Shown here: positions 9,239 to 51,031 of the stretch, in pieces
How positions within the stretch are numbered: the stretch's first letter is position 1
Layout of the letters: the number at the start of each line of letters is the position of its first letter
Origin: Halopiger goleimassiliensis
GTDB taxonomy: Archaea; Halobacteriota; Halobacteria; Halobacteriales; Natrialbaceae
Length of the DNA stretch: 64,000 nt
Direction: 5' to 3'
Assembly: GCF_000455345.1 (NCBI RefSeq)
Contig: NZ_HG315691.1
Coordinates: forward strand, 630,217 to 694,216
The notes under the pieces: model-generated
What the model was told of the DNA's origin: nothing
The model's database searches: none
Seen by the model: only the letters and a program-made list of their open reading frames with translations
Program-made: the position numbers and the translations under genes

Positions 9239-9267
9239 CGAGGCACGTCCTGCGTTCGTTCGTCGGC

Positions 9268-9519
9268 CTACGAGTCGGAGCGAATCGTCAGGATCCCGTC
9301 GTTGACCGTAACCTCGGTCGCCTCCTCCGGAACGTCGAACTCGTACTGTTCGCCGTCGACGACGACGATCGCCGTCTCCTCGAGGCGGTCGAGCGAGGGT
9401 TTGTCGCCCGTCTGGCCGAAGTCGACGGCGATGACGTGTTCGTCCGCGTAGTCGCGTTCCGTGATCGTGACCGCGTCCGTCTCGTTGGCGACGGCTTCCA
9501 GCTGCGGTGGCGGTTCCAT
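9268..9519 (-). CDS. Hsp20/alpha-crystallin-like small haloarchaeal protein
   Basis: 83-residue protein beginning MEPPPQLEAVANETDAVTI. The end, EFDVPEEATEVTVNDGILTI, has the beta-strand pattern that closes an alpha-crystallin domain (V-x-V-x-N-D-G-x-L-T-I). The N- and C-terminal extensions of true small heat-shock proteins are short or absent, so it may be a minimal Hsp20-like fold rather than an active oligomeric chaperone. The open frame extends much further upstream, but ATG 9519 is the sensible start because everything above it is antisense to the next gene. It is divergent from rlmE. Confidence 0.75.
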   Translation of the reverse strand: MEPPPQLEAVANETDAVTITERDYADEHVIAVDFGQTGDKPSLDRLEETAIVVVDGEQYEFDVPEEATEVTVNDGILTIRSDS

Positions 9520-9720
9520 GGTCGGTCGATCCGTTGGGACCGCTGTCCGTAAGCGCCGTGCAGGAAACTGCACCGTGAAGCGACTGTGGGGAACCGGACC
9601 CAACGCCGGTCGACTCCCATCCAACGAGCCTTTCCCGTTCGGCCACCTCACTGTCCGTATGAACGGACGTACGTGCCCGATTCGGGGCAGCAACGCGTCG
9701 CCATCCGCGGTGAGAGTACC

Positions 9721-10506
9721 ATGACGGGACGCGACATGTACTACAACAAGGCCAAGCAGGAGGGCTACCGTTCTCGAGCGGCCTACAAGCTCAAACAGCT
9801 GGACGACCTCGAGAACGTCCTCGAGCGCGGCGACACCGTCGTCGACCTCGGCGCGGCCCCCGGCGGCTGGCTGCAGGTCGCCGCCGAGGAGGTCGGACCC
9901 GAGGGGACCGTCATCGGGGTCGACCTCCAGCGGATCAAGCCGTTCGACGACGAGGAACTGAACGAGCACGTCGAGACGATTCGGGGCGACATGACCGAGG
10001 AGAAGACGCGCGAACGGGTCGTCGACGCCGCCGACGGGACGGTCGACGCCGTAGTGTCGGACATGGCACCCAACATGAGCGGCGAGTACTCGCTCGATCA
10101 GGCCCGATCGCTGCACCTCGCGCGCCAGGCGTTCGAGACCGCGCTCGAGTTGCTCGACACCGGCGGCGACTTCGTGGTGAAGGTCTTCGAGGGGCCGGAC
10201 GTCGACGACTTCCGCGCGGAGGTCGACGAGGAGTTCCGCTACGTTCGAGCGACCAGTCCCGACGCGTCGCGCGACGAATCCTCCGAGATCTACTTCGTCG
10301 GCAAGGACCACATCACGGCCCCCGTCCGCCCGGGGGACGAACTCGAGGTCGAGATCGTCGACGTCGGCAGCGAGGGCGACGGCATCGCGAGCGTCGACGG
10401 CTACCGGTTGTTCGTCCCCGCGACGGAGGCAGGCGAGGTCGTCGAGGTCCGCGTCGACGATGTCAAGCCGAACTTCGGGTTCGCACAGCGACTCGATCGG
10501 AACTAG
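9721..10506 (+). CDS. rlmE: 23S rRNA 2'-O-uridine methyltransferase RlmE (FtsJ) with TRAM domain
   Basis: SAM-dependent methyltransferase expected to modify a uridine in the 23S rRNA A-loop. Residues 1-200 are the FtsJ fold: YYNKAKQEGYRSRAAYKL (RNA-contact start), SAM motif VVDLGAAPGGWLQVA, catalytic Asp in VVSDMAPNMSG, and Lys in FVVKVFEG, giving the K-D-K-E pattern. Residues 205-261 are a TRAM domain, a known archaeal addition for RNA binding. The frame is open to 9586, but the ATG at 9721 starts the conserved MTGRDMYYNKAKQ. Its stop is three bases from the convergent regulator gene. Confidence 0.95.
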   Translation: MTGRDMYYNKAKQEGYRSRAAYKLKQLDDLENVLERGDTVVDLGAAPGGWLQVAAEEVGPEGTVIGVDLQRIKPFDDEELNEHVETIRGDMTEEKTRERVVDAADGTVDAVVSDMAPNMSGEYSLDQARSLHLARQAFETALELLDTGGDFVVKVFEGPDVDDFRAEVDEEFRYVRATSPDASRDESSEIYFVGKDHITAPVRPGDELEVEIVDVGSEGDGIASVDGYRLFVPATEAGEVVEVRVDDVKPNFGFAQRLDRN

Positions 10507-10509
10507 CCG

Positions 10510-10689
10510 TTACTCCTCGGCGTCCTCGAGGCGGTCGTGACGGGCGTCGATCTCGTCCAGGAGGTCCAGCGTTTTCCGGACCGACGCCCGGATCGCGTCG
10601 CTGCGGTTGACGAACTTCCCGTCGTCGCCGACGTGCTCGTCGAGATCGTCCAGCAGTTCCTGCGGGATTTCGACGCTGATCTTTGGCAT
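10510..10689 (-). CDS. Ribbon-helix-helix transcriptional regulator (CopG/NikR N-terminal type)
   Basis: 59-residue protein: MPKISVEIPQELLDDLDEHV then FVNRSDAIRASVRKTLDLLDE. This is a classic beta-strand, helix, helix dimeric DNA-binding domain; the SVEIPQ strand would lie in the major groove. No ligand domain is attached, so it probably acts as a simple dimer on its own or with a partner. No toxin gene is adjacent: the neighbours are rlmE (convergent) and tatCt. A TATA-like CTTAAG lies just upstream of the ATG on the coding strand. It is one of many such haloarchaeal regulators, target unknown. Confidence 0.88.
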   Translation of the reverse strand: MPKISVEIPQELLDDLDEHVGDDGKFVNRSDAIRASVRKTLDLLDEIDARHDRLEDAEE

Positions 10690-10828
10690 GTAGTCGTCGT
10701 TCGAAGCCCCGGGTCTTAAGCCCCGGTACGTGTTGCAGCGGTTGGACCGCGGCTCGAGGCCGTATCGGCTATGCACTACTCGGCTCCAACCGGCTGTGTC
10801 AACCTCGAGCGTGCCGATCGTTCGGGAA

Positions 10829-13153
10829 TCAGTCCCCGGTCGCGTCCGCCTCGGGGTCGGGTTCGGGAGCGGTGGTGCCGCCACCACCGCCGAAGAGCCG
10901 TCCGCCGGCGGTAAGGATGTAGAGGACAGCGAGGCCGAGCAGGTAGGTCAGCGCGATCGGAATCGCCACGAGAAACATCGTGAGGATGCCATTCGGGCTG
11001 GCGAAGGCGGCGACCGCGAAGATGGCGACGACGACGGGCCGCCAGCGCTCGAGCATCGTCCGGTAGTGGACGATGCCGCCGACGTGGAACAGCGCCATCG
11101 TGACGATCAGGTTCAGCAGGAAGCCGACGCCGATGGTCGTGTAGATCACGAGCCACGAGAAGCTGTTGATCCGGTAGGTGACCTCCATTCCGTTGACGAG
11201 GGCGTCGGTGATGAGATAGGAGATGACCGTCGGCGCGATCCAGTAGAAGCCGACGAACAGGCCCAGCGCGAACCCGGCGAAGAGCGCGAGTCCCCAGACG
11301 AGGAAGACCCGCGAGTCGCCGCTGACGAGGCCGCGTTCCCTGGCGGCCGGCCACGACCAGTACAGCACCATCGGCAGGATGGCGATGATCCCGAGGATGG
11401 TGCTCACCTTCACCATGAAGATCAACACCTCGACGGGGTGTAAGGCGATGACCAGCCCGAGATCGCTGATCAGGTCCGCCGATATCTCCTGACCCTGGAT
11501 CGACTCCTCGGTGACCTCGTCCAGGACTTCCGTCGGCACCCGATCGATGAACTGCACGAGGACGTAGCCGAACCCGCCCTGGTACAGCGCGAGGAAGGTC
11601 CCGCCCAGCACCGCCATGAAGACGCCCACGATGTAGATGGTCTTCGACGTGAGGCTGTCGACGATGAAGGCGAGGTCGTAGGCGTAGCCGCCGATGTCCT
11701 CCTCGGTCGTCTCCTCTTCCGTGAACGGATCGAGCATCCCCGCGGCCGTGCTGGCGAAGACGCTCTCGTCTTCGTCGGCCGCTCCCTCGGCTGGCGCGCC
11801 GCCGGCGTCGCTGCCCCCGACGTCGGCGCTTTCATCGGCGTTTTCGGCCCGCTCCTCGAGGGTGTCGAACCGGTCGAGGATCGCCTGGGCTTTCTCCCGG
11901 TTGTCGTCGTACATCGCCTGCCGGGAGTACTCGAGGGCCTGTTCTTCCTCCATCGCGAGGAACACCGGCGCGGGAATCTCCTCGATGTCGTCGGCGGCCA
12001 GCGTCTCGAAGTCGACGTCGTCGGGCGTCTCCGCCGAACGGAGGTCGTCTTCCCGCGGGTAGACCGGCGACTGGAGGATCTGTAGCGTGTAGACGAGCAG
12101 GGCGACGACGGCCACGACGAGGGCAACGATCAGGCCGACGGCGACGTCACCGAGGAGGCCGTACTCGGTCGCGATGGCCTGCAGGCTGCTCGGGTCCGGC
12201 CGCGCGTAGTCGGGAAACAGCGGGAAGACCGACTCCTCGAGCCGGTCGAAGCCGTCCTGGTTGACGAACGCGGCCGTCCCGAGGGCGACGACGACGATAC
12301 CGCCGACGAACTGCAGAACCCGGCGTTTGACGAGTTTGCTGCCCGTATCGAGTTCGGCGGCACCGCGGCGTCGCATGTTGGTGACGACCTTCGCGAGCCC
12401 GAGACTGAAGACGTAGAGGGCGACCAGCGGCAGGGCCCACATCAGCAGCGTGAACGGGTCCGGCGGGGAGAACATCGCGCCGAAGACGGTGATGACGACG
12501 ATGGCGTGTCGCCACTTGTCGCGGAAGGTCTCGTAGGAGACGATTTCGGTGTACGCGAGCACGCTCATCGCCAGCGGCAACTGGGCGGCGAGCCCGAACG
12601 AGATGGTCAACAGGACGATGAACTCGGTGAACTCGGTGATCCCCCAGCTCGGGTTCACCCCGGCCTCGTAGGCGACGGCCCCGAGGAACTCGAACGCGAA
12701 GGGGAAGAAGATCACGTACGCGTAGAGTAGTCCCAGCACGAACAGCGTCGCGGAGGCGAACCCGAACCCGATCTTGTACCGCGTCGAGATCGGGACGACG
12801 GAGTCGACGCCGCGTCGGCGCAACGCGCCGCGGGAGAAGTAGACGAGCGCCGGAATCGCGAGGATGATCCCCATCAAGACGCCGATCTTCGCCTGTAACA
12901 GGATGACTTCGAACGGCGTTCGCGTAATGATGGTGGTCGCGTCGGCGAGGTCGCCGTCCATATTCGTCTTGGCCGTCGCCTCGAGGAAGTCCCAGATGTA
13001 GACCCGTAGCGCGTAGAAGGTACCGACGAAGCCCAGCGTGAAGACGATAAACACCTTCTGGAGGTGATCCTGGGCGGTCGAGAACATCGCGCCGAGGGTT
13101 TCCCGCCCGGAGTTGATCGCTCGAGCGGTGTCCTCGTCGACGGCAGAACTCAT
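10829..13153 (-). CDS. tatCt: Twin-domain Sec-independent translocase TatCt
   Basis: Membrane receptor and core of the twin-arginine translocase. 774 residues, about three times the size of a normal TatC, because two TatC domains are fused. The first spans roughly residues 25-265, with further predicted membrane segments near 280 and 335; a long acidic cytoplasmic linker (about 380-490) follows, then the second TatC domain (about 505-745). Each domain carries the hydrophobic TatC helices and the loop before helix 3 (PALVYFSRGALRRRG in the first). This double architecture is known in haloarchaea, where TatCt acts beside a normal TatCo, encoded divergently at 13460. No TatA gene is present in the window. 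Confidence 0.93.
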   Translation of the reverse strand: MSSAVDEDTARAINSGRETLGAMFSTAQDHLQKVFIVFTLGFVGTFYALRVYIWDFLEATAKTNMDGDLADATTIITRTPFEVILLQAKIGVLMGIILAIPALVYFSRGALRRRGVDSVVPISTRYKIGFGFASATLFVLGLLYAYVIFFPFAFEFLGAVAYEAGVNPSWGITEFTEFIVLLTISFGLAAQLPLAMSVLAYTEIVSYETFRDKWRHAIVVITVFGAMFSPPDPFTLLMWALPLVALYVFSLGLAKVVTNMRRRGAAELDTGSKLVKRRVLQFVGGIVVVALGTAAFVNQDGFDRLEESVFPLFPDYARPDPSSLQAIATEYGLLGDVAVGLIVALVVAVVALLVYTLQILQSPVYPREDDLRSAETPDDVDFETLAADDIEEIPAPVFLAMEEEQALEYSRQAMYDDNREKAQAILDRFDTLEERAENADESADVGGSDAGGAPAEGAADEDESVFASTAAGMLDPFTEEETTEEDIGGYAYDLAFIVDSLTSKTIYIVGVFMAVLGGTFLALYQGGFGYVLVQFIDRVPTEVLDEVTEESIQGQEISADLISDLGLVIALHPVEVLIFMVKVSTILGIIAILPMVLYWSWPAARERGLVSGDSRVFLVWGLALFAGFALGLFVGFYWIAPTVISYLITDALVNGMEVTYRINSFSWLVIYTTIGVGFLLNLIVTMALFHVGGIVHYRTMLERWRPVVVAIFAVAAFASPNGILTMFLVAIPIALTYLLGLAVLYILTAGGRLFGGGGGTTAPEPDPEADATGD

Positions 13154-13459
13154 TGACTGGTTGTGGTTATCCCATATCCGGTTATCAACCTTTCGTGTCC
13201 GCTACAAACGCCGCACATCGCGCGCTCGAGGGAAAAGACCGGTTCGAACCGACTCGCGGTAGCGGACCAGGGGGGCGACGCGACGGGGGCTGACCGACGG
13301 GAGCCAACGTGTCGTATTCTACTGCGGTCAGCTCCGACTGACGGTCGCCTCGAACCCCGTACCCGGAATCTCGCCCGATCGACCGGGTGTTCTCACCCCT
13401 CTCGTTCGATGCGCGTAAGAAAAAGGCCTATAACTGGCGGCCTATCTATATCGCGTTAG
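13154..13459. other. Divergent intergenic region between tatCt and tatCo
   Basis: 306 bases holding the two divergent promoters. For tatCo a TATA-like CCTATAAC at 13427-13434 is about 29 bases before its ATG, so a leaderless message is likely. Toward tatCt, the AT-rich stretch around 13163-13195 (GGTTATC repeats) is the probable promoter. I see no gene or RNA here. Confidence 0.6.
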
Positions 13460-14533
13460 ATGTCGGACGAGTCGGCGCCGGACGAGGGTCCATCGGACCC
13501 CGAGGAGGCGGGCGAACCCGAGGAGTCGACGGTCTCGGCCGCCGACTCGAGCGACGCCGACGGTGACGCGGAGCCCGCGGACGAAGGAACCGACGGGGCG
13601 GAGGCGGACGAACCGGCGGACGACGGGACTGATGCCGACGAGGCTGCGGAGGCGGACGAGCCGGAGATCGACAGGCCGCCGGCGCTGCGCGATCAGCCCG
13701 TCGAGACCGACGGCGAGGGCGTCGTCGGCGGCGGCCACGGCTCCGAGGAGACGTCGCCGGAGTACCCCGACCCCGACGAGGACGTCGGGGGCATCTCGAC
13801 GCCGCCGGACGACGAGGAGATGCCGCTGGCCGATCACATCGAGGAGATGATCCTCCGGCTGGCGGTCGTCCTGCTGTTCGGCGCAGCCGGGACCGCCATC
13901 GGCCTGCTGTGGGCGATGGAAGCGATCGATTTCATCTGGCACGACGTCGTCCCCTACATGGAGGTGGAGGGCCGGATCCCGCCGCCGCACGTCTACCACC
14001 CGCTCGAGCCGTGGCTGACCCGGATCAAGGTCGCCGCCCTGCTCGGGATCATGGTCGCGCTCCCGACCTTCGTCTACGAGTGTTACAAGTTCATGAAGCC
14101 GGGGCTGTACCCCCACGAACGCAAGTACTACCTCGCGGCGGTCCCGACGAGCGTCGTCCTCGCGGGGATCGGGATGCTCTTCTCGTACTTCCTCGTGCTG
14201 CCGGCGCTGTTCTACTACTTCACGTACTACGCCGACGGTAGCGCGGGCATCGCGTACGCGCTCGGCGATACGTTCGACCTCGTCATCACGCTGACCGCTT
14301 TCCTCGCCATCGTCTTCCAGATTCCGCTGTTCATCATGCTCGCGATCATGATGGGCGTGACGACCCGCCGCTGGCTCGCCGCGAAGCGACTGTACTTCTG
14401 GGCGGCGTTCCTCGGCCTGTCCTTCATGTTCACGATGGACCCGACGATGATGGCACCCATCCTCGTCGCGATCACGATGATCCTGCTGTTCGAGGGGACG
14501 CTGGCGATCCTCAAGTGGGTCGGCCGGGAGTAG
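13460..14533 (+). CDS. tatCo: Sec-independent translocase TatCo
   Basis: Conventional single-domain TatC, 357 residues. Residues 1-120 are a cytoplasmic, very acidic low-complexity extension rich in Glu, Asp, Ala and Pro. The TatC core starts at MPLADHIEEMILRLAVVLLFG and has six predicted membrane helices, the motif LPTFVYECYKFMKPGLYPHERKY split by short loops, and the conserved FSYFLVLPALFYYF helix. Haloarchaea export most secreted proteins folded by this route; the binding lipoprotein at 7117 is one candidate client. It is divergent from tatCt. Confidence 0.94.
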   Translation: MSDESAPDEGPSDPEEAGEPEESTVSAADSSDADGDAEPADEGTDGAEADEPADDGTDADEAAEADEPEIDRPPALRDQPVETDGEGVVGGGHGSEETSPEYPDPDEDVGGISTPPDDEEMPLADHIEEMILRLAVVLLFGAAGTAIGLLWAMEAIDFIWHDVVPYMEVEGRIPPPHVYHPLEPWLTRIKVAALLGIMVALPTFVYECYKFMKPGLYPHERKYYLAAVPTSVVLAGIGMLFSYFLVLPALFYYFTYYADGSAGIAYALGDTFDLVITLTAFLAIVFQIPLFIMLAIMMGVTTRRWLAAKRLYFWAAFLGLSFMFTMDPTMMAPILVAITMILLFEGTLAILKWVGRE

Positions 14534-14857
14534 CCCCCTCGAGCGACGCTCTTCCTCGAACCAGTCTCCTACTTCCGTCGGTGGGATTTCGGAGCCGGTG
14601 CTATCGTGGACAGCCGTCCGTTCGATCGCCCACGTGCGACGACTTTACGGCATTATATTGTTAGTATTCCCTCGGATATCGTCGGGACCTGTGCTTTCAC
14701 ACCTGAAAACTTCCTATATGAAAACGATCAACGTTTAGTGTCCTCATATGTTCTCAATACCCGTGACTCAGTGAACTATGGGCCTGGAATTCTCTGGAGT
14801 GGTGTCCGATCGTAAAACGGGTTCGAACCGATCCCGACGGCCCGGGAGGTGGCTCCC
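14534..14857. other. AT-richer intergenic region upstream of nasA
   Basis: 324 bases. From 14640 to 14790 the sequence is clearly AT-richer than its surroundings, with TATA-like runs (CATTATATTG near 14652, CCTATATG near 14713). A small inverted repeat AAACG-n5-CGTTT lies at 14722-14736. This is the likely nitrate/ammonium-responsive promoter of nasA. The purine run GGAGG at 14845-14849 can act as a ribosome-binding site for GTG 14858. No convincing gene. Confidence 0.5.
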
Positions 14858-17005
14858 GTGACCGACTCCGTTCCGACGACGTGTATGCGGTGTGCGGTCG
14901 GCTGCGGGCACGTCCAGCGGCCGGTCGAACGGGGCTACGGCCTCGACGTCGTCCGCGGTGACGCCGCGCATCCGGTCAACAACGGCCTCGCCTGCCAGCG
15001 CGGCATCCGCGAGACCGCGGCTCCCGACGGCGAGTGGTTGGCCCGCCCGCTCGTGCGCCGCGACGGCGACCTCGTGCCGACGACCTGGGAGACCGCCCTC
15101 GAGCGTGCCGCCGAGGGCCTCTCCGCGGCCCTCGAGAGCGGCGACGGCGGCGACGGCGTCGCCGTACTGGGTAGCGGCCAGCAAACGAACGAGGCCGCCT
15201 ACGCGCTGGGGAAACTCGCCCGGGGCGGCTTCGGCACCCGCTACTACGACGCCAACACGACGCTGTGTATGGCCTCGGCCGTCACCGCGTACTACGACGC
15301 CTTCGGCAGCGACGCACCGCCGCCGACCTACGACGACGTCCCCGAGGCCGAGACCCACCTCGTCTGGGGGGCCAATCCGGCCGCGGCCCACCCCGTCCTG
15401 TTCCGGTGGATCACCCAGTCGGCCGACGAGGACGATTCCGAACTGCTCGTGGTCGACCCCATCGAGAGCGAGACCGCCGAGGTCGCCGACCACCACGTCC
15501 CCCTCGAGCCGGGCGGGGACCTCGCGCTCGCTCGAGCGGTACTCGCCCGGGTCGTCGAGACCGACCGGGTCGACGAGTCGTTCGTCGCCGAGGCAACGAC
15601 GGGCTTCGCGGAGCTGCGCGCCGAACTGCCCGACGCCGCGGCGGCCGCCGACCGCGCCGGCGTCTCGATGGCGGACGTCGACCGACTCGCGGCCGCGTTC
15701 GGGGACCCGACGCTGCTCTACTGGGGGATGGGGATCAACCAGAGCGTCAACGGGACCGCCGCCGCGGGCGCGCTGATCGACCTCTGCCTGGCGACGGGGA
15801 ACCTCCGACCCGGTTCGGGGCCGTTCTCGCTGACGGGACAGGCCAACTCGATGGGGACGCGCGTCTGTTCCTCGAAGGGCACCTGGCCGGGGCACCGGCC
15901 GTTTACCGATCCTGCCCACCGCGAGACGGTCGCCGAAGCGTGGGACGTGCCCGAGTCTCGGCTTCCCGAAAATTCCGGCCCCGGGCCGGTCGGGATCGTC
16001 GACGCGATCGACGACGAGGTCGACGCCGTCTACGCGGTCGCCACCAATCCCGTCGCCGGAATGCCCGATGCGACCCGGGTCCGGGACCGGCTCGCGGACG
16101 CCTTCCTCGTGGTGCAGGACGCCTTCCGCAGCGAGACCGTCGACCTCGCCGACGTCGTGTTGCCGGCGGCGACCTGGGGCGAATCCGAGGGGACGACGAT
16201 CAACATGGAACGGACCGTCTCGCGGGTGCGAGCGGCGACCGAGACCCCCACGGGCGTCAGGACCGACCTCGAGTTGATCCGCCACCTGGCCGACCGCACC
16301 GTTCCGGGGCTGTTCGACTCGCCGCTCGAGCCGGCGGCCGTCTTCGACGAACTCGCGGCGCTGACGGCCGGGACGCCCGCGGATCTCTCGGGGATCAGCT
16401 ACGACCGCCTCGAGGCCGAGCGCGCGGTTCGCTGGCCGGCCCCGTCGGCCGACGTCGCGGCCGGCTATCGGTACTACGAGGGGCCGGAGGGGCGCGACGA
16501 CGCGCCTGCATACGAGGGTGCCTCGGATCCCGCGGAGTCGTGGTCGTTCTACACGCCGTCCGGACGGGCGCAGTTCTCGAGCGCCGACGCCCAGCCGGTG
16601 CCCGAGCCGACCGACGAGGCGTATCCCCTGACGTTGACGACCGCACGTCGGCCCGACGCCTACAACACCGGGGTCCGAACCCGGGACGACGAACCGCCGG
16701 TCGCCCGGGTCAGTCCGGCGACGGCCGTCGCGCTCGCGAACGACATCGACGGGATCCCGGAGGACGACGCGGACGTCAGGGGGCGGGTCGTCTCGCGACG
16801 GGCGTCGGTCGAGGTCCGGATCGAGACCGACGACGCGATCCCGGACGGCGTCGTCTGGCTCCCGATTCACCACCCCGTGGTCAACGAACTGACCCTCCCC
16901 GACGTCGACCCGCGGTCGAAGGAGCCCCACTACAAGCAGTGTGCCGTCCGCCTCGCGGCACCCCGCGAGTCCGACGCGGAGGCGATCTCCGAAGCGAGCG
17001 CCTGA
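14858..17005 (+). CDS. nasA: Assimilatory nitrate reductase catalytic subunit NasA
   Basis: Molybdopterin-guanine-dinucleotide enzyme reducing nitrate to nitrite in the cytoplasm. The N-terminal 4Fe-4S site is C9-x2-C12-x3-C16-x29-C46. Cys137 in TTLCMASA is the likely molybdenum ligand. The central domains contain VWGANPAAAHP, WGMGINQSVNG and the segment LTGQANSMGTR typical of NasA, and the C-terminal MGD domain ends with WLPIHHP and NELTLP. GTG 14858 is preferred over GTG 14849 because GGAGG at 14845-14849 is then eight bases upstream. About 715 residues, as usual for archaeal NasA. The stop is about 320 bases before nasD. No nitrate transporter or MobA-like gene lies between them. Confidence 0.93.
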   Translation: MTDSVPTTCMRCAVGCGHVQRPVERGYGLDVVRGDAAHPVNNGLACQRGIRETAAPDGEWLARPLVRRDGDLVPTTWETALERAAEGLSAALESGDGGDGVAVLGSGQQTNEAAYALGKLARGGFGTRYYDANTTLCMASAVTAYYDAFGSDAPPPTYDDVPEAETHLVWGANPAAAHPVLFRWITQSADEDDSELLVVDPIESETAEVADHHVPLEPGGDLALARAVLARVVETDRVDESFVAEATTGFAELRAELPDAAAAADRAGVSMADVDRLAAAFGDPTLLYWGMGINQSVNGTAAAGALIDLCLATGNLRPGSGPFSLTGQANSMGTRVCSSKGTWPGHRPFTDPAHRETVAEAWDVPESRLPENSGPGPVGIVDAIDDEVDAVYAVATNPVAGMPDATRVRDRLADAFLVVQDAFRSETVDLADVVLPAATWGESEGTTINMERTVSRVRAATETPTGVRTDLELIRHLADRTVPGLFDSPLEPAAVFDELAALTAGTPADLSGISYDRLEAERAVRWPAPSADVAAGYRYYEGPEGRDDAPAYEGASDPAESWSFYTPSGRAQFSSADAQPVPEPTDEAYPLTLTTARRPDAYNTGVRTRDDEPPVARVSPATAVALANDIDGIPEDDADVRGRVVSRRASVEVRIETDDAIPDGVVWLPIHHPVVNELTLPDVDPRSKEPHYKQCAVRLAAPRESDAEAISEASA

Positions 17006-32481: not shown

Positions 32482-35400
32482 ATGGCGCAAGCGGGTAACG
32501 CTGAACTCGTCGACTCGTTCGAGCAGTTCTTCCGCAACTACTACGACAACGAGATCAAACAGCTCGCCCAGCGGTACCCGAACGAACAGCGCTCACTGAG
32601 CGTCGACTGGCAGGACCTCTATCGCTACGATCCCGACCTCGCGGACGACTTCCTGAACCAGCCCGAGCAACTGCAACAGTACGCCGAGGAAGCGCTCCGG
32701 CTGTACGACCTCCCGATCGACGTCAGCCTCGGACAGGCCCACGTCCGGGTCTACAACCTCCCCGATACCGACTCCCCGGAGATCCGTGAGATCCGCGCCC
32801 GCGACATGAACACGCTGGTCCAGGTCCGGGGCATCGTCCGCAAGGCCACCGACGTCCGCCCGAAGATCGAGGAGGCCGCCTTCGAGTGTCAACTCTGTGG
32901 CACGCTCACCCGCGTTCCCCAGTCCAGCGGCGACTTCCAGGAACCCCACGAGTGCCAGGGCTGTGAACGACAGGGTCCCTTCCGCGTGAACTTCGACCAG
33001 TCGGAGTTCGTCGACTCCCAGAAACTGCGCATCCAGGAGAGCCCCGAAGGACTGCGGGGCGGCGAGACGCCCCAGTCGCTGGACGTCCACGTCGAGGACG
33101 ACATTACTGGCGAGGTGACGCCGGGCGACCACGTCTCCGCGACGGGCGTGTTGCGACTCGAGCAGCAGGGCGACGGCCAGGACAAATCGCCGGTCTTCGA
33201 CTTCTACATGGAGGGGATGTCCGTCCAGATCGAGGAAGAGGAGTTCGAGGACATGGACATCACCGACGAGGACAAACAACAGATCGTCGAGATCTCGAAT
33301 CAGGACGACGTCTACGAGCGGATGGTCGCCTCCATCGCGCCCTCGATCTACGGCTACGAGCAGGAGAAGCTCGCGATGATCCTCCAGCTGTTCTCGGGCG
33401 TGACGAAGCAACTCCCCGACGGGTCGCGCATCCGCGGCGACCTGCACATGCTCCTGATCGGGGACCCGGGTACCGGAAAGAGTCAGATGCTAGGGTATAT
33501 TCAAAATATTGCACCTAGGTCGGTATATACCTCCGGTAAGGGCTCGTCGTCGGCGGGCCTCACTGCTGCGGCTGTGAGGGATGATTTCGGTGATGGACAG
33601 CAGTGGACGCTCGAAGCCGGTGCTTTAGTTCTCGCGGATCAGGGTATCGCTGCGGTCGACGAACTCGACAAGATGCGGTGTGTCACTGGGAACACATTAG
33701 TCCATACCGGTAATGGAATCATACCAATTCGTGAGCTCGCACACAGCGCGATACGAGATGGTTCGGTCGAAGAACTCGAAAACGGACGAACGATTCGAGA
33801 CGTCGATATGGAAGTCTGGACGATGGCCGAAGACGGAACCATCGTCAAGCGTGACGTTCAAGCGATTCACGAGTATGATTCCCCCGACGAACTCCACGAG
33901 GTCACGTTAGAGAGCGGAGAACAGTTAACGACGACAGCCGACCATCCATTCTTCGTCTTGGACGGCGGAAAGCGGGACGAACGCCAAGCACAGGAACTGC
34001 ACGAAGGCGACTGGGTATTCGTTCCCAAGAACATCCCATCAGAAGTGACGGATGGTGGAGTCAGCGTAATGCCCTCGTACGATACAGAACCAGAACCCCG
34101 ACAGTTGACCCCTTCACACGGGGCAATTTTGGGATACATCGCCGGTGATGGGAACGTCTTCTACGAACGCGACGAGGGCTGCTACGGGTTCCGCTTTACG
34201 AACAAAGAAGAAGAATTGTTGGCCGACTTTGAAAGGGCATGTGTCGACGCGTTCGATACACAACCGGTTCGCCATCCGAGCGAACAACGAGACGACGGCG
34301 TTGGAACGGTCCGCGTACACGGGAAAGAGTATGTCGATGAACTTCTCGAGTCTGGGACGAATCTCGAGAACTACGACGGAAAACGGCTTCCGGAGGAAGT
34401 GACTGATGCATCCCGAAAAACGAAGGCTGCATTCGTTCGTGCTCTCGCAGATTCGGAGGGGACTGTCGGCGAGCGCGCGGTTAGAATCTCTTCTTCGAGC
34501 TACGAGTTGCTGCTCGGGACGAAAATGTTATTACTCGAGTTCGGGATCTCGAGTCAGATACAAACACGAACTCGGAATGAAGGGCGCGATCTGTACGTGC
34601 TCGCGATTACGTCCGATCACTCGCTCGAAGCGTTCAAGCGACACATCAGATTCACTCTCGACCGGAAACAGCGTTCGTTAGAACGCGCCTGTGAACGGAC
34701 GACGGGAACCAGGACCATCGTAGATGTACTCCCAGAATGTGGTGGGTTGCTCGAACAAGCTCGTGGAGCGCTCCGTCTACACCAATCCGAGTGCGGTCTC
34801 GAGAGTGATGCAACGTACTGCAACCTCGAAAACGAGGATGCAAACGCGTCACTTCGTCTTTCCAAAACGATCCTCGAACGGTTCGAGGATCGAAAAGCAG
34901 AGGCAAGTGAACATCACGACGAACTTGCAACAGAGGCGTCCTGGGACCGTCTCTCCGAACTCCGTGAACGGTACCACATCTCGCAACGGGAAGTAGCCGC
35001 AGAGATGTCGATTTCCCAGCAGCAACTCTCGGCTTGCTGGGGAGGCGATGCCGACCTCCGAGAACGGGTTCGCCACCGACTTCGCGAAATCCTCGAGACA
35101 CCGGCATCGGTCGATCTCAGCCCACTTCGAGAACTGATCGAGAGCGACGTGAAGTGGCGGCGGGTAGAAACTGTTCGACAAATCGATTCGCGAGATCACA
35201 ACGACACTCGAGTTCGGGTTCTCGAACAACGCCTCGCCGATGAAATCGGTACAGGAAACGTCGATTCGGTTCGAAAACAGGCACGTTCCCTGCTCGAAGA
35301 TGACGAACCAGCCGAAACGTGGGATGAACTCCGGGGTCGGCTCGAGGCATACGGCATCTCGTTCCAGCAGATTGCTTCGGAGATGGATGTCGCAGCATCG

Positions 35401-36510
35401 ACCGTCTCGCGATGGTTCTCCGGAGCTGTCGACGTCGAAAACTTCGATACCGTTCGATCCGTCTGCGAGAAATTACTCGACGAGAAACGCCGTCGAATCT
35501 CGAACCTTCTCGAGATGATCGAACGGCGAAACCAGCCCCGAGTGTATGACCTAACGGTTGAGGGGACCCACAACTTCATCGCCAACGGCATGGTCGTTCA
35601 CAACTCCGAGGACCGCTCCGCCATGCACGAGGCCTTAGAGCAGCAGAAAATCTCGGTCTCCAAAGCGGGCATCAACGCCACCCTGAAGTCCCGCTGCTCG
35701 CTGCTGGGGGCGGCCAACCCCAAGTACGGCCGGTTCGACCAGTACGAACCCATCGGCGAGCAGATCGACTTAGAGCCCGCCCTCATCTCGCGGTTCGACC
35801 TCATCTTCACGGTCACCGACCAGCCCGACGAGGAGAAGGACAAGAACCTCGCCGAGCACATCCTTACGACCAACTACGCGGGGGAGCTGACCACACAGCG
35901 CGAGCAGATGACCTCCCTCGAGGTCGAACAGGGCGAGATCGAGGAGATGACCGAACAGGTCGATCCCGAGATCGACGCCGAACTCCTGCGGAAGTACATC
36001 GCCTACGCGAAGCAGAACTGCCACCCGCGGATGACCGAGGAGGCCCGGGAGACGATTCGGGACTTCTACGTCGATCTTCGGTCCCGAGGGACCGACGAGG
36101 ACGCCGCCGTTCCGGTCACTGCACGAAAGCTCGAGGCGCTGGTTCGACTCGCCGAGGCCAGCGCCCGCGTTCGGCTCTCGGACACGGTGGAGCAACGCGA
36201 CGCCGAGCGATCCGTCGAGATCGTCCGGTCCTGCCTGCAGGACATCGGGGTCGATCCCGAGACCGGCGAGTTCGACGCCGACATCGTCGAGGCCGGCACC
36301 TCCAAATCCCAGCGCGACCGAATCAAGAACCTCAAGGGCCTCATTCAGGACATCGAGGAGGAGTACGACGACGGCGCGCCGGTCGACATCGTCTTGGAGC
36401 GGGCCGAAGAGGTCGGCATGGACCAGTCCAAGGCCGAACACGAGATCGACAAACTCAAGCAGAAAGGCGAGGTCTACGAGCCGAGTACCGACCACCTGCG
36501 GACGACGTAA
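32482..36510 (+). CDS. mcm: Replicative helicase MCM, intein-containing precursor
   Basis: Replicative DNA helicase. The precursor is 1342 residues; removing the intein (codons 400-1041) leaves 700, a normal archaeal MCM. N-terminal domain residues 1-260 have a zinc site (CQLCGTLTRVPQ...CQGC). The AAA+ core has Walker A GDPGTGKS at 327-334, Walker B AVDEL with D393 and E394, and after the intein SEDRSAMHEALEQQ, the sensor-1 Asn in LLGAANPKYG and arginine-finger SRFDLIF. The C-terminus has a winged helix. The intein interrupts just after Walker B, DELDKMR with Cys400 next. Start ATG 32482 is right after a TATA-like box. Confidence 0.97.
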   Translation: MAQAGNAELVDSFEQFFRNYYDNEIKQLAQRYPNEQRSLSVDWQDLYRYDPDLADDFLNQPEQLQQYAEEALRLYDLPIDVSLGQAHVRVYNLPDTDSPEIREIRARDMNTLVQVRGIVRKATDVRPKIEEAAFECQLCGTLTRVPQSSGDFQEPHECQGCERQGPFRVNFDQSEFVDSQKLRIQESPEGLRGGETPQSLDVHVEDDITGEVTPGDHVSATGVLRLEQQGDGQDKSPVFDFYMEGMSVQIEEEEFEDMDITDEDKQQIVEISNQDDVYERMVASIAPSIYGYEQEKLAMILQLFSGVTKQLPDGSRIRGDLHMLLIGDPGTGKSQMLGYIQNIAPRSVYTSGKGSSSAGLTAAAVRDDFGDGQQWTLEAGALVLADQGIAAVDELDKMRCVTGNTLVHTGNGIIPIRELAHSAIRDGSVEELENGRTIRDVDMEVWTMAEDGTIVKRDVQAIHEYDSPDELHEVTLESGEQLTTTADHPFFVLDGGKRDERQAQELHEGDWVFVPKNIPSEVTDGGVSVMPSYDTEPEPRQLTPSHGAILGYIAGDGNVFYERDEGCYGFRFTNKEEELLADFERACVDAFDTQPVRHPSEQRDDGVGTVRVHGKEYVDELLESGTNLENYDGKRLPEEVTDASRKTKAAFVRALADSEGTVGERAVRISSSSYELLLGTKMLLLEFGISSQIQTRTRNEGRDLYVLAITSDHSLEAFKRHIRFTLDRKQRSLERACERTTGTRTIVDVLPECGGLLEQARGALRLHQSECGLESDATYCNLENEDANASLRLSKTILERFEDRKAEASEHHDELATEASWDRLSELRERYHISQREVAAEMSISQQQLSACWGGDADLRERVRHRLREILETPASVDLSPLRELIESDVKWRRVETVRQIDSRDHNDTRVRVLEQRLADEIGTGNVDSVRKQARSLLEDDEPAETWDELRGRLEAYGISFQQIASEMDVAASTVSRWFSGAVDVENFDTVRSVCEKLLDEKRRRISNLLEMIERRNQPRVYDLTVEGTHNFIANGMVVHNSEDRSAMHEALEQQKISVSKAGINATLKSRCSLLGAANPKYGRFDQYEPIGEQIDLEPALISRFDLIFTVTDQPDEEKDKNLAEHILTTNYAGELTTQREQMTSLEVEQGEIEEMTEQVDPEIDAELLRKYIAYAKQNCHPRMTEEARETIRDFYVDLRSRGTDEDAAVPVTARKLEALVRLAEASARVRLSDTVEQRDAERSVEIVRSCLQDIGVDPETGEFDADIVEAGTSKSQRDRIKNLKGLIQDIEEEYDDGAPVDIVLERAEEVGMDQSKAEHEIDKLKQKGEVYEPSTDHLRTT
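33679..35604 (+). mobile_element. Intein in MCM with LAGLIDADG endonuclease and duplicated HTH
   Basis: Self-splicing protein element of 642 residues. It begins with Cys400 (CVTGNTLVHTGNG, block A), block B has T-A-D-H with His488, and it ends VYDLTVEGTHNF then MVVHN at codon 1041, before Ser of the extein (blocks F and G). All splicing residues are present. The LAGLIDADG homing endonuclease has two motifs: LGYIAGDG (acid D556) and FVRALADSEG (acid D657), both intact. Between endonuclease and C-terminal splicing part lie two similar helix-turn-helix units, 126 residues apart (W821/Y831 and W947/Y957 of the precursor). Base composition is clearly lower in GC than mcm itself. Confidence 0.95.
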
Positions 36511-46080: not shown

Positions 46081-46125
46081 ATGTCAGGACCGTCCGATCG
46101 ACCGACTCGGAGCCGGGTACGATGA
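46081..46125 (+). CDS. Putative 14-codon leader ORF overlapping ferredoxin start
   Basis: ATG 46081 opens 14 codons and stops at TGA 46123-46125, overlapping the ferredoxin ATG in the arrangement ATGA. A TATA-like CTTATTT at 46050-46056 lies about 27 bases before ATG 46081, so a leaderless message would begin at this ORF. It has no recognisable product; it could couple or tune ferredoxin translation. Confidence 0.4.
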   Translation: MSGPSDRPTRSRVR

Positions 46126-46508
46126 CCGACCACGAGATCACCCTCGAGTGGCGCGACGGCCGCACGGAGACCGTGACGGTCTCCCCGCGGGAGTCGGTGC
46201 TCGAGGCGGCCCAGCGGACCGGCGTCCGATTGCCGTACGACTGCCGAAAGGGGACCTGTATCACCTGTGTCGGCCAGGTGCTCGAGGTCGAAGGTACGGA
46301 CGATGATTCCGATACCGACGGGGCCGACGGGTCGGCACGGCCTTCCTCCGCGGACGCGTTCACCTACCGGCGGTCACCCGCGGCGCTGACCGACGACGAG
46401 CAGGCCGACGGCTACGTCCTGCTGTGTATCGCCGTGCCGCGAGCCGACTGCCACGTCAGGGTCGGTCCACAGGTGCGCTCGGAAGTCGGTGATAGTCCCT
46501 GGAGCTGA
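46122..46508 (+). CDS. 2Fe-2S ferredoxin (plant type) with acidic insert
   Basis: Small electron-transfer protein, 128 residues. Cluster ligands are C41, C46, C49 (CRKGTCITC) and C102 (LLC), a C-x4-C-x2-C-n-C set. Between C49 and C102 is an insert of about 35 acidic and Ser-rich residues (DDDSDTDGADG), longer than plant ferredoxins. Haloarchaeal ferredoxins often carry inserts, but commonly near the N-terminus. It may serve nitrite reductase, as the only ferredoxin in the window. ATG 46122 is clear; the in-frame open frame extends upstream over rio1 as antisense. Confidence 0.9.
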   Translation: MTDHEITLEWRDGRTETVTVSPRESVLEAAQRTGVRLPYDCRKGTCITCVGQVLEVEGTDDDSDTDGADGSARPSSADAFTYRRSPAALTDDEQADGYVLLCIAVPRADCHVRVGPQVRSEVGDSPWS

Positions 46509-47019
46509 GAGTCCGCGAAGCGATAGCACCAACTGAAACGAGCTCCATGCCGATCGGGCGGCATTCGGTCGATCGATCGTCTCGAGGCTGCTCAGTCTCC
46601 GCAGCCAACCGTCCCGTATCGGTCGAACGAGAACCGGTTGCTGCAGCCGTTCGGGCGCTATCGATGTACTGGAGGGTAGAATACGTGCGAGGCGACGGTA
46701 CCGACGAACGACTTCGACTACGAGCGCTTATCCAGCGGTCGCTCGAGGGCCCATACCGATGAAGACGAGTGGCCAACGTCGCACGACCCACAGACGGATT
46801 CTGAAACGACAATATTTCCCGGCGAGTTGACGTACGACGAAATGATATCGGTAATCGAGTTCCCGATCGGAAACGGCCACCACGGAACAGACAGGGGAGA
46901 ACTGATGTACGATGGTTTCGAGTTCCAGCAGTACGGTAGTGGTCAGTCGTCGGAATCCGACGCTCGGAGTCGTCCGATCAGCCTTCCCTACGAAACTGGT
47001 CACGTGAGGTGTATCTACC
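46509..47019. other. Accessory spacer with no convincing gene
   Basis: 511 bases. The composition falls towards about half AT from 46800 on. Two short open frames exist (46547-46762 and 46827-47063); the first is basic and implausible. The second (MTYDEMISVIEFPIGNG start) has mixed composition and overlaps the next gene; it could be a remnant. I see no repeats, RNA or promoter of note. Confidence 0.45.
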
Positions 47020-47565
47020 ATGTCTGTCAGGATCAGCTACGAGATCGCGGACGAAGTCATTGATACCGAGGACATCAGAGGCGGATATCGGATCGATGTC
47101 GACGGCCGCCGCATCAACCGATACGGAAACGAAGCCGCGTTCGAATCTCCGCTCCGGTGGAAGCCCGAGTATGCGGGCGAGTACCTCCACACTGAATTCA
47201 TCGACCTGCTGTCGAAGACGACGCGGATCGCCCGAGGGAAACTCGCGATGTACGAACCTGTTACCTGTCGATTTAGCGGCACAGTCAACGAATTCGTCTT
47301 CGAGATGCTCACGGAGACACACCTCAGGATCGCGTATCGAATTTCGACCGATTCGAAACCTGCCGGTGACGTTCTTCCCGACCCCGAAAGTGCTCGCGGG
47401 TACGTTGTCACGGCGGCGGAGTTCTGCTCCGAAGTCCTGCGAGCCACAAGCGCATATTTCGACGAAATTTCTGGGTATCCGATCGAGTTCGGTCACGAGT
47501 ACCTCGAAGAATTCGAAGAAAAACTCTCCGCGCTCGAAACGGCGCTCGAGAACGTCGACGAGTGA
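47020..47565 (+). CDS. Hypothetical protein in accessory islet
   Basis: 181 residues, acidic. N-terminal: MSVRISYEIADEVIDTEDI; middle: RGKLAMYEPVTCRFSGTVNE, then an amphipathic region, and a C-terminal helix EEFEEKLSALETALENVDE. No signal, membrane segment or known catalytic motif. Codon use includes more A/T at third positions than neighbouring housekeeping genes. It is followed with overlap by the broken frame at 47562. In size and context it resembles an immunity or antitoxin-type accessory protein, but that is only inference. Confidence 0.65.
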   Translation: MSVRISYEIADEVIDTEDIRGGYRIDVDGRRINRYGNEAAFESPLRWKPEYAGEYLHTEFIDLLSKTTRIARGKLAMYEPVTCRFSGTVNEFVFEMLTETHLRIAYRISTDSKPAGDVLPDPESARGYVVTAAEFCSEVLRATSAYFDEISGYPIEFGHEYLEEFEEKLSALETALENVDE

Positions 47566-47864
47566 GTCGTTCTCGAGTACGACGGAGTATCGATGTCGAC
47601 CCCGAATCGACCGACGGTTACGTGGGTGCGGTGCTGTCGTCAAACGTATTCCACTTCTGGCGAAACGAAAAATCCAGCGAGTACCGCGCCGAGACGGGCA
47701 TCGACTTCGAAGACCGCGAGCATCCCGACTGGGACATGCCCGTGCCCGCCTTGCCGACGGACATCCATACGAGTTTCTAGCGGAACTCTTCGCAATGGAA
47801 CGAGTCGGGACGGACATCTCGGGGAACCTCGAACACCAATACGAGCAGCTATTTGATCTATGAC
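47562..47864 (+). pseudogene. Frameshifted hypothetical gene remnant
   Basis: A frame opens at GTG 47562 (overlapping the stop of the previous gene) and reads plausible halophile sequence, GYVGAVLSSNVFHFWRNEK and GIDFEDREHPDWDMPVP, to TAG 47778-47780. A neighbouring frame continues with equally plausible sequence, HPYEFLAELFAMERVG and GNLEHQYEQLFDL, to a TGA overlapping the next ATG (47860). The two parts look like one protein split by a one-base shift around 47755-47770. Function unknown. Programmed frameshift or sequencing error are alternatives. Confidence 0.55.
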
Positions 47865-48018
47865 TGACGACGATCAACCAAACGATGAACGTGAGCCCGA
47901 ACCGACAGATGTACTCGAAGAAACGGTAAAAGGACAACGAGATTCCATTGAATCCGCCAAAAAAGACCTGGGGTCTGAAGAAGATACCGAAACGAATGAT
48001 GGCTGTTGTGAAGAGTGA
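47860..48018 (+). CDS. 52-residue acidic protein ending in Cys-Cys
   Basis: ATG 47860 overlaps the TGA of the upstream fragment (ATGA), so coupling is likely. The protein begins MTDDDQPNDEREPEP and has a helix EETVKGQRDSIESAKKDLG before the end TNDGCCEE. Strongly acidic, no hydrophobic core; it could be a small partner or be disordered. The twin Cys near the terminus could bind metal or anchor. Function unknown; too short for most gene finders. Confidence 0.5.
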   Translation: MTDDDQPNDEREPEPTDVLEETVKGQRDSIESAKKDLGSEEDTETNDGCCEE

Positions 48019-48021
48019 ACG

Positions 48022-48096
48022 ATGCCGACGCAGGATGAACGAGTGGATCGGCCGGAGATTGAACTTGCTAACCGACTGAACGATGATCTACTCTAA
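48022..48096 (+). CDS. Possible 24-residue ORF
   Basis: ATG 48022 follows the previous stop by three bases and encodes MPTQDERVDRPEIELANRLN plus four more residues. Third positions and content are acceptable, and it continues the tightly packed order of this islet, but a 24-residue frame alone is weak evidence. It could be a truncated gene. Confidence 0.3.
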   Translation: MPTQDERVDRPEIELANRLNDDLL

Positions 48097-48137
48097 ACTG
48101 CTGAGACTCCTGCTGACGAAACAAGAGGTAGATATGT

Positions 48138-48476
48138 ATGACCACTGTAAGATATGATGGAAGAACGTTGACGATCGAGGATACGACGGTTAGCCTCCGA
48201 CATCCTGTAAAGGAAGCGACTCGAGTTAACGACGTAGTCGTGGTGCTACTCGACGTCCCGACCGGAACGATAGATAATCGGAACGTCATCGGAGTCTCGG
48301 AAAACGGAGCCCGGCTTTGGGAAATAGAACCGATCAGTGACGATCCAACTGCAGACCAGCCATACGTGGATTTGTCCAAAGAGAACGGTGGAATTTGGGT
48401 TGTAAACCCGATTGGAGCGCGATGCCGAGTGGACGTAGCGACGGGAACTCTGGTCGAAAAAGAAATAACGCGGTGA
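48138..48476 (+). CDS. Small immunity-like beta protein
   Basis: 112 residues, beginning MTTVRYDGRTLTIEDTTVSL. The pattern V-V-V-L-L-D-V-P, RNVIGVSENGARLWEIEP, and a C-terminal WVVNPIGARCRVDVATGTL matches single-domain beta proteins with a 'gene-name N-V-x-G-V-x-x-x-G-x-x-x-W' core, which I associate with immunity proteins beside bacterial polymorphic toxins. No toxin gene is present here. Third-position A/T use is higher than in flanking genes, as expected for an acquired gene. Function is inferred from resemblance only. Confidence 0.65.
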   Translation: MTTVRYDGRTLTIEDTTVSLRHPVKEATRVNDVVVVLLDVPTGTIDNRNVIGVSENGARLWEIEPISDDPTADQPYVDLSKENGGIWVVNPIGARCRVDVATGTLVEKEITR

Positions 48477-48937
48477 TGGACGATCTCACAGCAGCCGATC
48501 AAGGAGTAACGACCTCGTCTGTAACGCTGGTGGCACGATTACGAGCGGTTCGTGACGACGGGTACACTCGCGTCCGTCGAGTAGCCGCCGGCGTTCGCAG
48601 CGGAAAACGGAGGGAGTCGACCCGAACGGGCAGGGAAACGGAGGCGGGCGGGAAGGTACGTGATCGGGTGCCTGTGGACTGCCGAGTCGGCGGTGGGTAG
48701 CGATGATCGGTCGGGGCGTGCGGTCTCTGCGCGACCGCACCCGACGTTTGGCGGGGAGTTATAATAAACGGACCAACCGGCTCCAGCGTACTGGGAATCG
48801 CCGAAGGCAGGTCGTTCCGGTGTCGAATCCCCCCGTTCCCGATCGACGCGGATTCGACGGCTCGGGGCCGTCCGCCGCGGGCGACTGGCTAACCCCAGTA
48901 ACGTTAACGGGGCCGCGACGAAACTCTCGAGCAACGA
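48477..48937. other. Spacer before ligA, end of accessory islet
   Basis: 461 bases. Open frames here are short and basic. A TATA-like AGTTATAATAAACGG at 48757-48771 is the only strong promoter-like element; it is about 170 bases from ligA, so a long leader or a short RNA would be implied. No hairpin arms or repeats of note. Confidence 0.45.
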
Positions 48938-51031
48938 ATGTCGCTCACCCACGAGGACGCGGACGAGAACCCGTATCTCCGGGAGCCGCCGACCGACTTC
49001 CAACCGGTCGAGGAGCTCTCGGCGGAGGACGCCCGCGAGCAAGTTGAGTTGCTCCGCGAGGCGATCCGCGAGCACGACCGCCGGTACTACGTCGAGAACG
49101 ATCCCATTATCGCCGACCGGACCTACGACGCGCTCTTCTCCCGACTGCAGGCCCTCGAGGACGCCTTCGACCTCTCGCATCCGGACAGCCCCACCCGGAG
49201 CGTCGGCGGCGAACCGATCGACGCCTTCGAGACGGTCGAACACGTCGCGCCGATGCTCTCGATCGACCAGAGCGGCGAGGAGACGGACGTCCGCGAGTTC
49301 GACGACCGCGTGCGCCGCGAAGTCGGCGCGGTCGACTACGTCTGCGAGCCCAAGTTCGACGGCGTCTCGATGGAGTTCGTCTACGAGGACGGCTCCCTCG
49401 AGCGCGCGGTCACCCGCGGCGACGGCCGCGAGGGCGACGACGTGACCCGGAACGCCCGCACCATCGGCTCGGTGCCCCAGCAACTCCACGGCGACCACCC
49501 CGACTTCCTCGCCGTGCGGGGCGAGGTCTACATGCCGAAAGACGCCTTCCAGGAACACAACCGCGAGCGGATCGAACGCGGCGAGGAGCCGTTCGCCAAT
49601 CCCCGGAACGCGACCGCGGGCACGATCCGACAGCTCGATCCCTCGGTCGTCGCCGAACGGCCGCTGCAGGTCTTTTACTTCGACGTCCTCGAGTCCAGCG
49701 AGCCGTTCGACTCCCACAGCGACGCGCTCGAGCGCTTCCCCGAGTGGGGACTCCGGGTGACCGAGCACGTCGAGCGCGCGGCGGATATCGACGCGGCGAT
49801 CGACTACCGCGACCGGATGCTCGAGCTGCGGGACGACCTGAACTACGAGATCGACGGCACCGTGATCAAGGTCGACGATCGCGAGGCCCGCGAGGAACTC
49901 GGCCGGACGGCGCGTCACGACCGCTACGCCTTCGCCTACAAGTTCCCGGCTCGCGCGGAGGTGACGCCGATCGTCGACGTCGCCGTCCAGGTCGGTCGCA
50001 CGGGCCGGCTGACGCCCGTCGCCCTCCTCGAGCCGGTCGACGTCGGCGGCGTGACGGTCTCACGGGCGAGCCTGCACAACCCCGAGGAGATCGCCGAGAA
50101 GAACGTCGACGTCGGCGACACGGTCCGCGTCCAGCGCGCGGGCGACGTCATCCCCTACGTCGAGGAGGTCGTCGAAAAGGGGGCGGAGAACGAACCCGAG
50201 AGCCACTACGAACTCCCCGATCACTGTCCCGTCTGTGGCAGCGCCGTCGAGCGCGACGGTCCCATCGCCTTCTGTACCGGCGGGCTCGCCTGCGACGCGC
50301 AGCTTCGACGGTCGATCGAGTACTACGCCGGCGACGACGGCCTCGACCTCGAGGGGCTGGGTGAGAAGAGCGTCCGGCAGCTTGTCGATGCCGGCCTGCT
50401 CGAGTCCGTTGCGGACCTCTACGAACTCGAGCGCGAGGACCTCACTGCGCTCGAGGGCTGGGGCGCGACGAGCGCCGAGAACCTGTTGCACGAACTCGAG
50501 GAGAGCCGCGAACCGCCGCTTTCGGACTTCCTCTCGGCGCTCGGGATTCCCCACGTCGGGCCGACGACGGCCCGCGAACTCGCCCGCGAGTTCGGCACGT
50601 TCGAGGCGTTCCGCGAAGCCGCCGAGAACGAACCCGAACGGCTCGAGGAGGTCGACGACGTGGGCGAGACCGTCGCCGACCAGATCCACGAGTTCTTCAC
50701 CAGCGAGGCCAACGCCGAGGCGGTCGACGCCATCCTCGAGCACGTCTCGCCCCAGGAGTCGGCCCTCGAGTCCGGCGGCGACGAACTCGAGGGGCTGACC
50801 TTCGTCTTCACGGGGTCGCTCGAGGGCGTCACTCGCGGCGAGGCCCAGGAGACCGTCGAGGCCCACGGCGGGTCGGCGACGAGCAGCGTCTCGGGGAACA
50901 CGGACTACCTCGTGGTCGGCGAGAACCCGGGACAGACGAAACGCGACGACGCCGCGGCGAACGACGTCCCGATGGTCGACGAGGACGAGTTCCGGGAACT
51001 GCTGGCGGAGTACGGGGTCGACCTCGAGTGA
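48938..51031 (+). CDS. ligA: NAD-dependent DNA ligase LigA
   Basis: Bacterial-type DNA ligase using NAD. 697 residues with the complete domain order: NAD-binding Ia, adenylation domain with catalytic Lys139 (KFDG), OB fold, zinc finger with CPVC and CTGGLAC, helix-hairpin-helix repeats (LGEKSVRQLVDAGL, LGIPHVGPTTAREL) and a C-terminal BRCT domain (LEGLTFVFTGSLEG). Haloarchaea are known to have acquired this ligase from bacteria, in addition to the ATP-dependent LigA. Base composition now matches the host, so the transfer is old. Start ATG 48938 fits the family and the strand's local context. Confidence 0.96.
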   Translation: MSLTHEDADENPYLREPPTDFQPVEELSAEDAREQVELLREAIREHDRRYYVENDPIIADRTYDALFSRLQALEDAFDLSHPDSPTRSVGGEPIDAFETVEHVAPMLSIDQSGEETDVREFDDRVRREVGAVDYVCEPKFDGVSMEFVYEDGSLERAVTRGDGREGDDVTRNARTIGSVPQQLHGDHPDFLAVRGEVYMPKDAFQEHNRERIERGEEPFANPRNATAGTIRQLDPSVVAERPLQVFYFDVLESSEPFDSHSDALERFPEWGLRVTEHVERAADIDAAIDYRDRMLELRDDLNYEIDGTVIKVDDREAREELGRTARHDRYAFAYKFPARAEVTPIVDVAVQVGRTGRLTPVALLEPVDVGGVTVSRASLHNPEEIAEKNVDVGDTVRVQRAGDVIPYVEEVVEKGAENEPESHYELPDHCPVCGSAVERDGPIAFCTGGLACDAQLRRSIEYYAGDDGLDLEGLGEKSVRQLVDAGLLESVADLYELEREDLTALEGWGATSAENLLHELEESREPPLSDFLSALGIPHVGPTTARELAREFGTFEAFREAAENEPERLEEVDDVGETVADQIHEFFTSEANAEAVDAILEHVSPQESALESGGDELEGLTFVFTGSLEGVTRGEAQETVEAHGGSATSSVSGNTDYLVVGENPGQTKRDDAAANDVPMVDEDEFRELLAEYGVDLE

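Follow-up and report, generated by a model that had tools for sequence, protein, structure and literature searches.

The 64,000-nucleotide stretch of Halopiger goleimassiliensis considered here (hereafter the window; contig NZ_HG315691.1, positions 630,217 to 694,216) carries a low-GC islet of small and broken frames between a ferredoxin gene, FD1 (ending at 46508), and the DNA ligase gene ligA (starting at 48938). Two of its genes, p181 and p112, are intact and putatively encode immunity proteins against polymorphic toxins, while the toxins themselves are reduced to 3' stumps. The islet probably consists of orphan immunity genes kept after displacement of their cassettes and would thus be the archaeal equivalent of the orphan-immunity arrays of bacteria, a reading to which we assign a probability of about 70 %. 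The features concerned are as follows.

46122-46508, + strand: FD1, 2Fe-2S-type ferredoxin, kept in relatives; left flank
46749-47018, + strand: 3' stump (C-terminal domain) of an EndoU-like toxin, from Smith-Waterman comparison with loci L102 and L110 and a six-sequence profile
47020-47565, + strand: p181, putative immunity gene, intact, from toxin adjacency in relatives
47601-47777, + strand: scrap of the host gene for selenium-binding protein 56 (SBP56), from Pfam PF05694 and alignment to locus L061
47860-48018, + strand: p52, open reading frame for an acidic Cys-Cys product of 52 amino acids (aa), without clear relative
48052-48132, + strand: 3' stump of the toxin cognate to p112, with an in-frame stop inside, from protein and DNA alignment to locus L025
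48138-48476, + strand: p112, putative immunity gene, intact, C-terminal Arg, propeller-fragment fold predicted by modelling
48896-48937, + strand: ligA leader, conserved, where the islet ends on the right, from blastn to junctions of relatives
48938-51031, + strand: ligA, NAD-dependent DNA ligase; right flank

Putative immunity genes and remnants of their toxins

The distribution of both genes, and of injection machinery, was surveyed in 125 genomes of the host's family; p181 was also sought in 391 genomes of the class. p112 and p181 appear to belong to two unnamed families: none of the family libraries searched named either protein, and PADLOC, PHROGs and NCBIfam returned no informative match for the islet products. 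Matches to p112 were encountered in 20 out of 125 genomes, including this one, and none was found in plasmids. The three closest copies (Natrinema pallidum DSM 3751, G063; G029; Natrialba hulunbeirensis JCM 10989, G044) each shared 4 bp with the 3' end of a gene for an eCIS_core protein (474, 972 and 470 aa, respectively), and the last ~130-150 residues of these three proteins formed one conserved domain, which also terminated large proteins in loci L028, L034, L037 and L038. The window p112 was 76 %, 62 % and 57 % identical to copies paired with toxins. Among the 28 copies in the fetched loci, 12 displayed a toxin end of the same or a related domain within 700 bp upstream, compared with one of 271 other genes drawn from the same loci, this single match being located in a toxin-bearing locus. 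One further copy stood tail to tail with its toxin end in L028, where the minus strand (8853-16427) encoded a 2524-aa secreted-type protein with many DxDxDG repeats and the p112-linked domain at its end. In L033 (G029) and L039 (G028), three to four divergent members of the p112 family stood in tandem beside toxin genes, and copies without toxin recurred in several other genomes (e.g. L030, L032 and L035). Comparison of the window p112 with that of L025 gave 0.141 nonsynonymous (dN) and 0.791 synonymous (dS) substitutions per site, which points to purifying selection, along a branch on which a cognate pair also lies.

Members of the p181 family were present in three of the 125 family genomes and in 15 of the 391 class genomes. 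These 15 profile-found copies include that of G359 (L109), a weak match that looks unlike a member; in 11 of them an EndoU-like toxin end lay no more than 800 bp upstream, and in L046, L097 and L102 the immunity gene overlapped the toxin gene by 4 bp. The closest relatives, the immunity proteins of L102 and L110, were 39-41 % identical. The toxin end of L097 scored 18.6 bits against bacterial EndoU (PF14436; curated cut-off 25.3), and a different toxin in L045 scored 17.6 bits against PBECR1 (cut-off 27.6). Carriers of the p181-linked toxin ends were either eCIS_core proteins (L046 by Pfam, L097 as read from its sequence) or a large non-eCIS protein (L102). The N-terminal eCIS_core domain (PF13699) was found on the toxins of L025, L026, L027 and L046 and was absent from the window stumps. 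In relatives, genes of both families follow polymorphic toxin genes, often with a 4-bp overlap, and many of these toxins bear eCIS_core (DUF4157), a domain found on the cargo of injection systems. An earlier reading of the letters alone (the sequence-only reading) had called the 112-residue product immunity-like, which agrees with this kinship and can be extended to p181.

No intact toxin gene was found within the window, only 3' stumps. The open frame 46680-47060, just upstream of p181, was the sole EndoU-like match in the six-frame translation of the 64 kb (E-value 6.8e-5 with a six-sequence profile); a four-sequence profile gave 8.1e-4 on the same frame. The stump itself (46749-47018) lacks a start, the catalytic-histidine region and the last strand. 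It reached Smith-Waterman scores of 94 and 90 with the toxin ends of L102 and L110 (shuffles 28-29, standard deviation (sd) 5; equalled by 0 of 2000 each) and of 55 with that of L097, above all 2000 shuffles; taken singly, L046 and L104 gave no significance (396 and 477 of 2000 shuffles). Ahead of p112, positions 48052-48132 aligned with the very end of the L025 toxin both as protein (59; shuffles 30, sd 4.9; 0 of 500) and as DNA (31; shuffles 18.8, sd 2.4; 0 of 1000). This second stump came only from aligning the short stretch ahead of p112, and was not found by whole-toxin tblastn or profile search of the window. The toxin loss that had been suspected was thereby traced to remnants upstream of both p181 and p112.

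Host gene scar, extent and composition of the islet

The sequence-only reading had listed a 181-aa frame (47020-47565), a frameshifted gene, a 52-aa frame (47860-48018), a frame of 24 codons (48022-48096) and a 112-aa frame (48138-48476), all of which were recovered in that order. The supposed frameshifted gene (a 72-aa frame, 47562-47780) is an internal scrap of SBP56 and no gene of the islet, and the 24-codon frame is part of a toxin stump. ATGA-type overlaps were displayed by some junctions (GTGA at 47562-47565, ATGA at 47860-47863) and not by the others.

The SBP56 scrap corresponded to residues 271-329 of 467 (PF05694, 9e-10), was 64 % identical in aa to the L061 copy, with DNA matches mostly of 70-84 %, and was the sole SBP56 match in the genome. 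Junctions between RIO kinase and ligA in relatives commonly contained a transporter, FD1, SBP56 (467 aa) and a second ferredoxin. SBP56 sequence was present in 33 out of 40 such junctions (a non-random sample, chosen by hand, with gaps mostly of ~0.7 to 15 kb) and nearly complete in 31, in one of which it was split into two frames. The scrap thus lies where SBP56 was located ancestrally, between ferredoxin and ligA, and marks the insertion site; because the gene is kept in these relatives, the insert presumably broke it after divergence from them.

The same site seems to have received a parallel insertion in Natrinema pallidum (G063, L092), whose FD1-SBP56 gap held scraps of GH-E nuclease toxins alternating with ankyrin-repeat immunity genes, together with an eCIS scrap. 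The p112 cassette of G029 adjoins RIO kinase. Other unrelated inserts between FD1 and ligA were seen by eye in L064, L080 and L093 (G096, G100 and G050), comprising a 541-aa potassium channel/TrkA-like protein, TnpB-like transposase frames and a 314-aa protein.

Between the SBP56 scrap and the p112-side stump, the ATG of p52 overlaps the stop of the frame 47781-47862. Neither that frame nor p52 had a convincing relative in the 125 genomes (best E-value for p52 0.016). As this ATGA layout resembles that of toxin-immunity pairs, 47781-48018 could be the relic of a third cassette.

The GC content of the islet was 0.49-0.58 versus 0.65-0.70 in the flanks. At third codon positions (GC3) it amounted to 0.687 in p181, 0.358 in p52 and 0.513 in p112, whereas 43 further genes of the window averaged 0.873 (sd 0.049), so that the lower GC and A/T-richer codon use noted previously were measurable. 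Toxin and immunity genes of relatives displayed likewise low values (0.37-0.61, six genes). The acquired, non-housekeeping character proposed for the islet was borne out by patchy occurrence in relatives and by GC3 unlike that of the host, except that one frame, the SBP56 scrap, derives from a host metabolic gene. The islet as an acquired low-GC immunity island is supported, and the earlier immunity interpretation holds. Elsewhere in the window, a 1342-aa frame (32482-36510) displayed a GC3 of 0.724, one of the lowest values within the set of 43; it presumably encodes an MCM-like helicase, whose length could accommodate an intein.

Proposed origin and competing explanations

Polymorphic toxin/immunity cassettes, of eCIS_core/DUF4157 type or with large secreted toxins, would have inserted between FD1 and ligA, thereby destroying the resident SBP56 gene. 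Later events would have deleted nearly all of both toxins, to leave the 3' ends and the intact p181 and p112 that are seen in the sequence. The tube gene of the injection machinery (PF06841) was present in 35 of the 125 family genomes, and in 10 of the 20 that carry p112, and absent from this one; eCIS_core was present in 36 of the 125, and only half a domain was found here. This half domain (G000:C1:2869801-2869938; L054, L123) lies between ordinary genes of the same genome and would be a relic of another injected-toxin gene. Since the cell appears to lack an injection system, p181 and p112 most likely guard it against the toxins of neighbours that are still armed. p181 would neutralise an EndoU-like RNase, and the partner of p112 would be a toxin end, possibly an NADase, into whose active site p112 would insert its basic C-terminal residue.

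This mode of action for p112 was suggested by its fold and its C-terminus. The p112 model (three sequences; predicted local distance difference test score, pLDDT, 85.7) was all beta, matched propeller pieces and aligned with Tni2 in the Tne2/Tni2 complex (PDB 6B12) with a Z of 10.2 and a root-mean-square deviation of 3.5 over 110 residues, in a chain of 153. In that complex the C-terminal Arg153 of Tni2 occupies the active site of the NADase effector Tne2 (PMC10539506). The last residue was Lys or Arg in 23 of the 27 p112-family copies of at least 60 aa, versus 50 of 292 neighbouring genes (the copies being related, this is not a probability), and one of the last two was basic in 26 of the 27; the window p112 ends in Arg. 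The p112 C-terminus was accordingly likened to the C-terminal Arg of Tni2. That a haloarchaeon without injection system keeps orphan immunity captured by displacement, at a recurrent chromosomal site, from the injected-toxin cassettes of rivals, and that p112 is moreover a half-propeller NADase inhibitor plugging its toxin with a C-terminal Arg or Lys, is tentative as a combined proposal, at somewhat less than even odds.

Several observations weigh against these interpretations. The protective roles of p112 and p181 are predictions from sequence and, for p112, from a model. The stump ahead of p112 is short and aligned significantly with L025 only, not with L026 or L027. No recognised toxin end stood upstream of, or tail to tail with, 15 of the 28 p112 copies and four of the 15 p181 copies, and the low dN/dS of p112 is shared with a lineage where it still pairs with a toxin. 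The Tni2 match ties with many other propeller pieces, and a 19-sequence p112 profile did not find 6B12 at E-values up to 10. The ~130-aa toxin end linked to p112 is possibly an NADase, a guess for which Pfam (E-value up to 10) gave no NADase family, only chance matches, and a PDB profile search no meaningful match; TNT was missing from these Pfam matches, an absence that proves nothing. The model of this end (pLDDT 49.8) gave meaningless Foldseek matches.

The islet might alternatively be a pure relic of decay, in which whole cassettes arrived and are now dying, p181 and p112 being merely unbroken so far and devoid of a present role. The rest of the islet is indeed all broken; however, p181 and p112 retain uninterrupted reading frames next to two toxins and an SBP56 gene that are mere scraps, and toxin-less p112 recurs in several other genomes, which renders this explanation rather unlikely, though it deserves attention. 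The sequence-only reading had itself suggested that the toxin may lie elsewhere, in which case p112 and p181 would be working cognate immunity; toxin-end searches of this genome covered the 64-kb window. Against this stand the single half eCIS_core, the missing tube gene and the toxin stump found immediately before each of the two genes, so that we regard it as highly improbable. That both are ordinary small host genes without toxin connection is scarcely credible in view of their patchy occurrence, low GC3 and a toxin adjacency far above the control, even if no family library names them.

Related systems and significance

The orphan-immunity arrays of the Vibrio cholerae type VI secretion system (T6SS), which arise by sequential effector displacement (PMC5361080), resemble the islet in that immunity genes were retained, effectors displaced and old effector 3' ends moved along; in contrast, the islet is archaeal, lies outside any secretion cluster and involves other protein families. 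It shares with the recombinase-associated acquired interbacterial defence (rAID) of gut Bacteroidales (PMC12247911) orphan immunity thought to protect against the effectors of other cells. Unlike rAID, it comprises two immunity genes only, of other folds, and no recombinase was found by Pfam scan of its frames. Orphan immunity was protective in Serratia (PMC10539506). The Tne2/Tni2 pair has in common with p112 the basic C-terminal residue and the model alignment, whereas p112 displays no detectable sequence similarity to Tni2 and the toxin activity is only guessed here.

The T6SS-like contractile injection system of Halogeometricum borinquense (PMC11566945) shares with the relatives of the islet the eCIS_core/DUF4157 N-terminus, the toxin C-terminus and the immunity gene directly downstream; by comparison, the present genome is devoid of the tube gene, and the window of an intact toxin, holding only immunity genes and stumps. 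That work showed by experiment that haloarchaea possess DUF4157 toxins whose downstream genes neutralise them, and toxins injected between archaea have been demonstrated experimentally only recently (PMC11566945). No report of archaeal orphan immunity was found in the literature searched.

We would class the islet with orphan-immunity islands, as a variant with a predicted protective role from an archaeon that apparently has no injection system. The locus supplies two candidate immunity families, with two toxin ends as their putative targets, together with the readable scar left by a cassette. If p112 and p181 do protect, weaponless archaea would carry stand-alone immunity, and antagonism between cells would be strong enough to select it.
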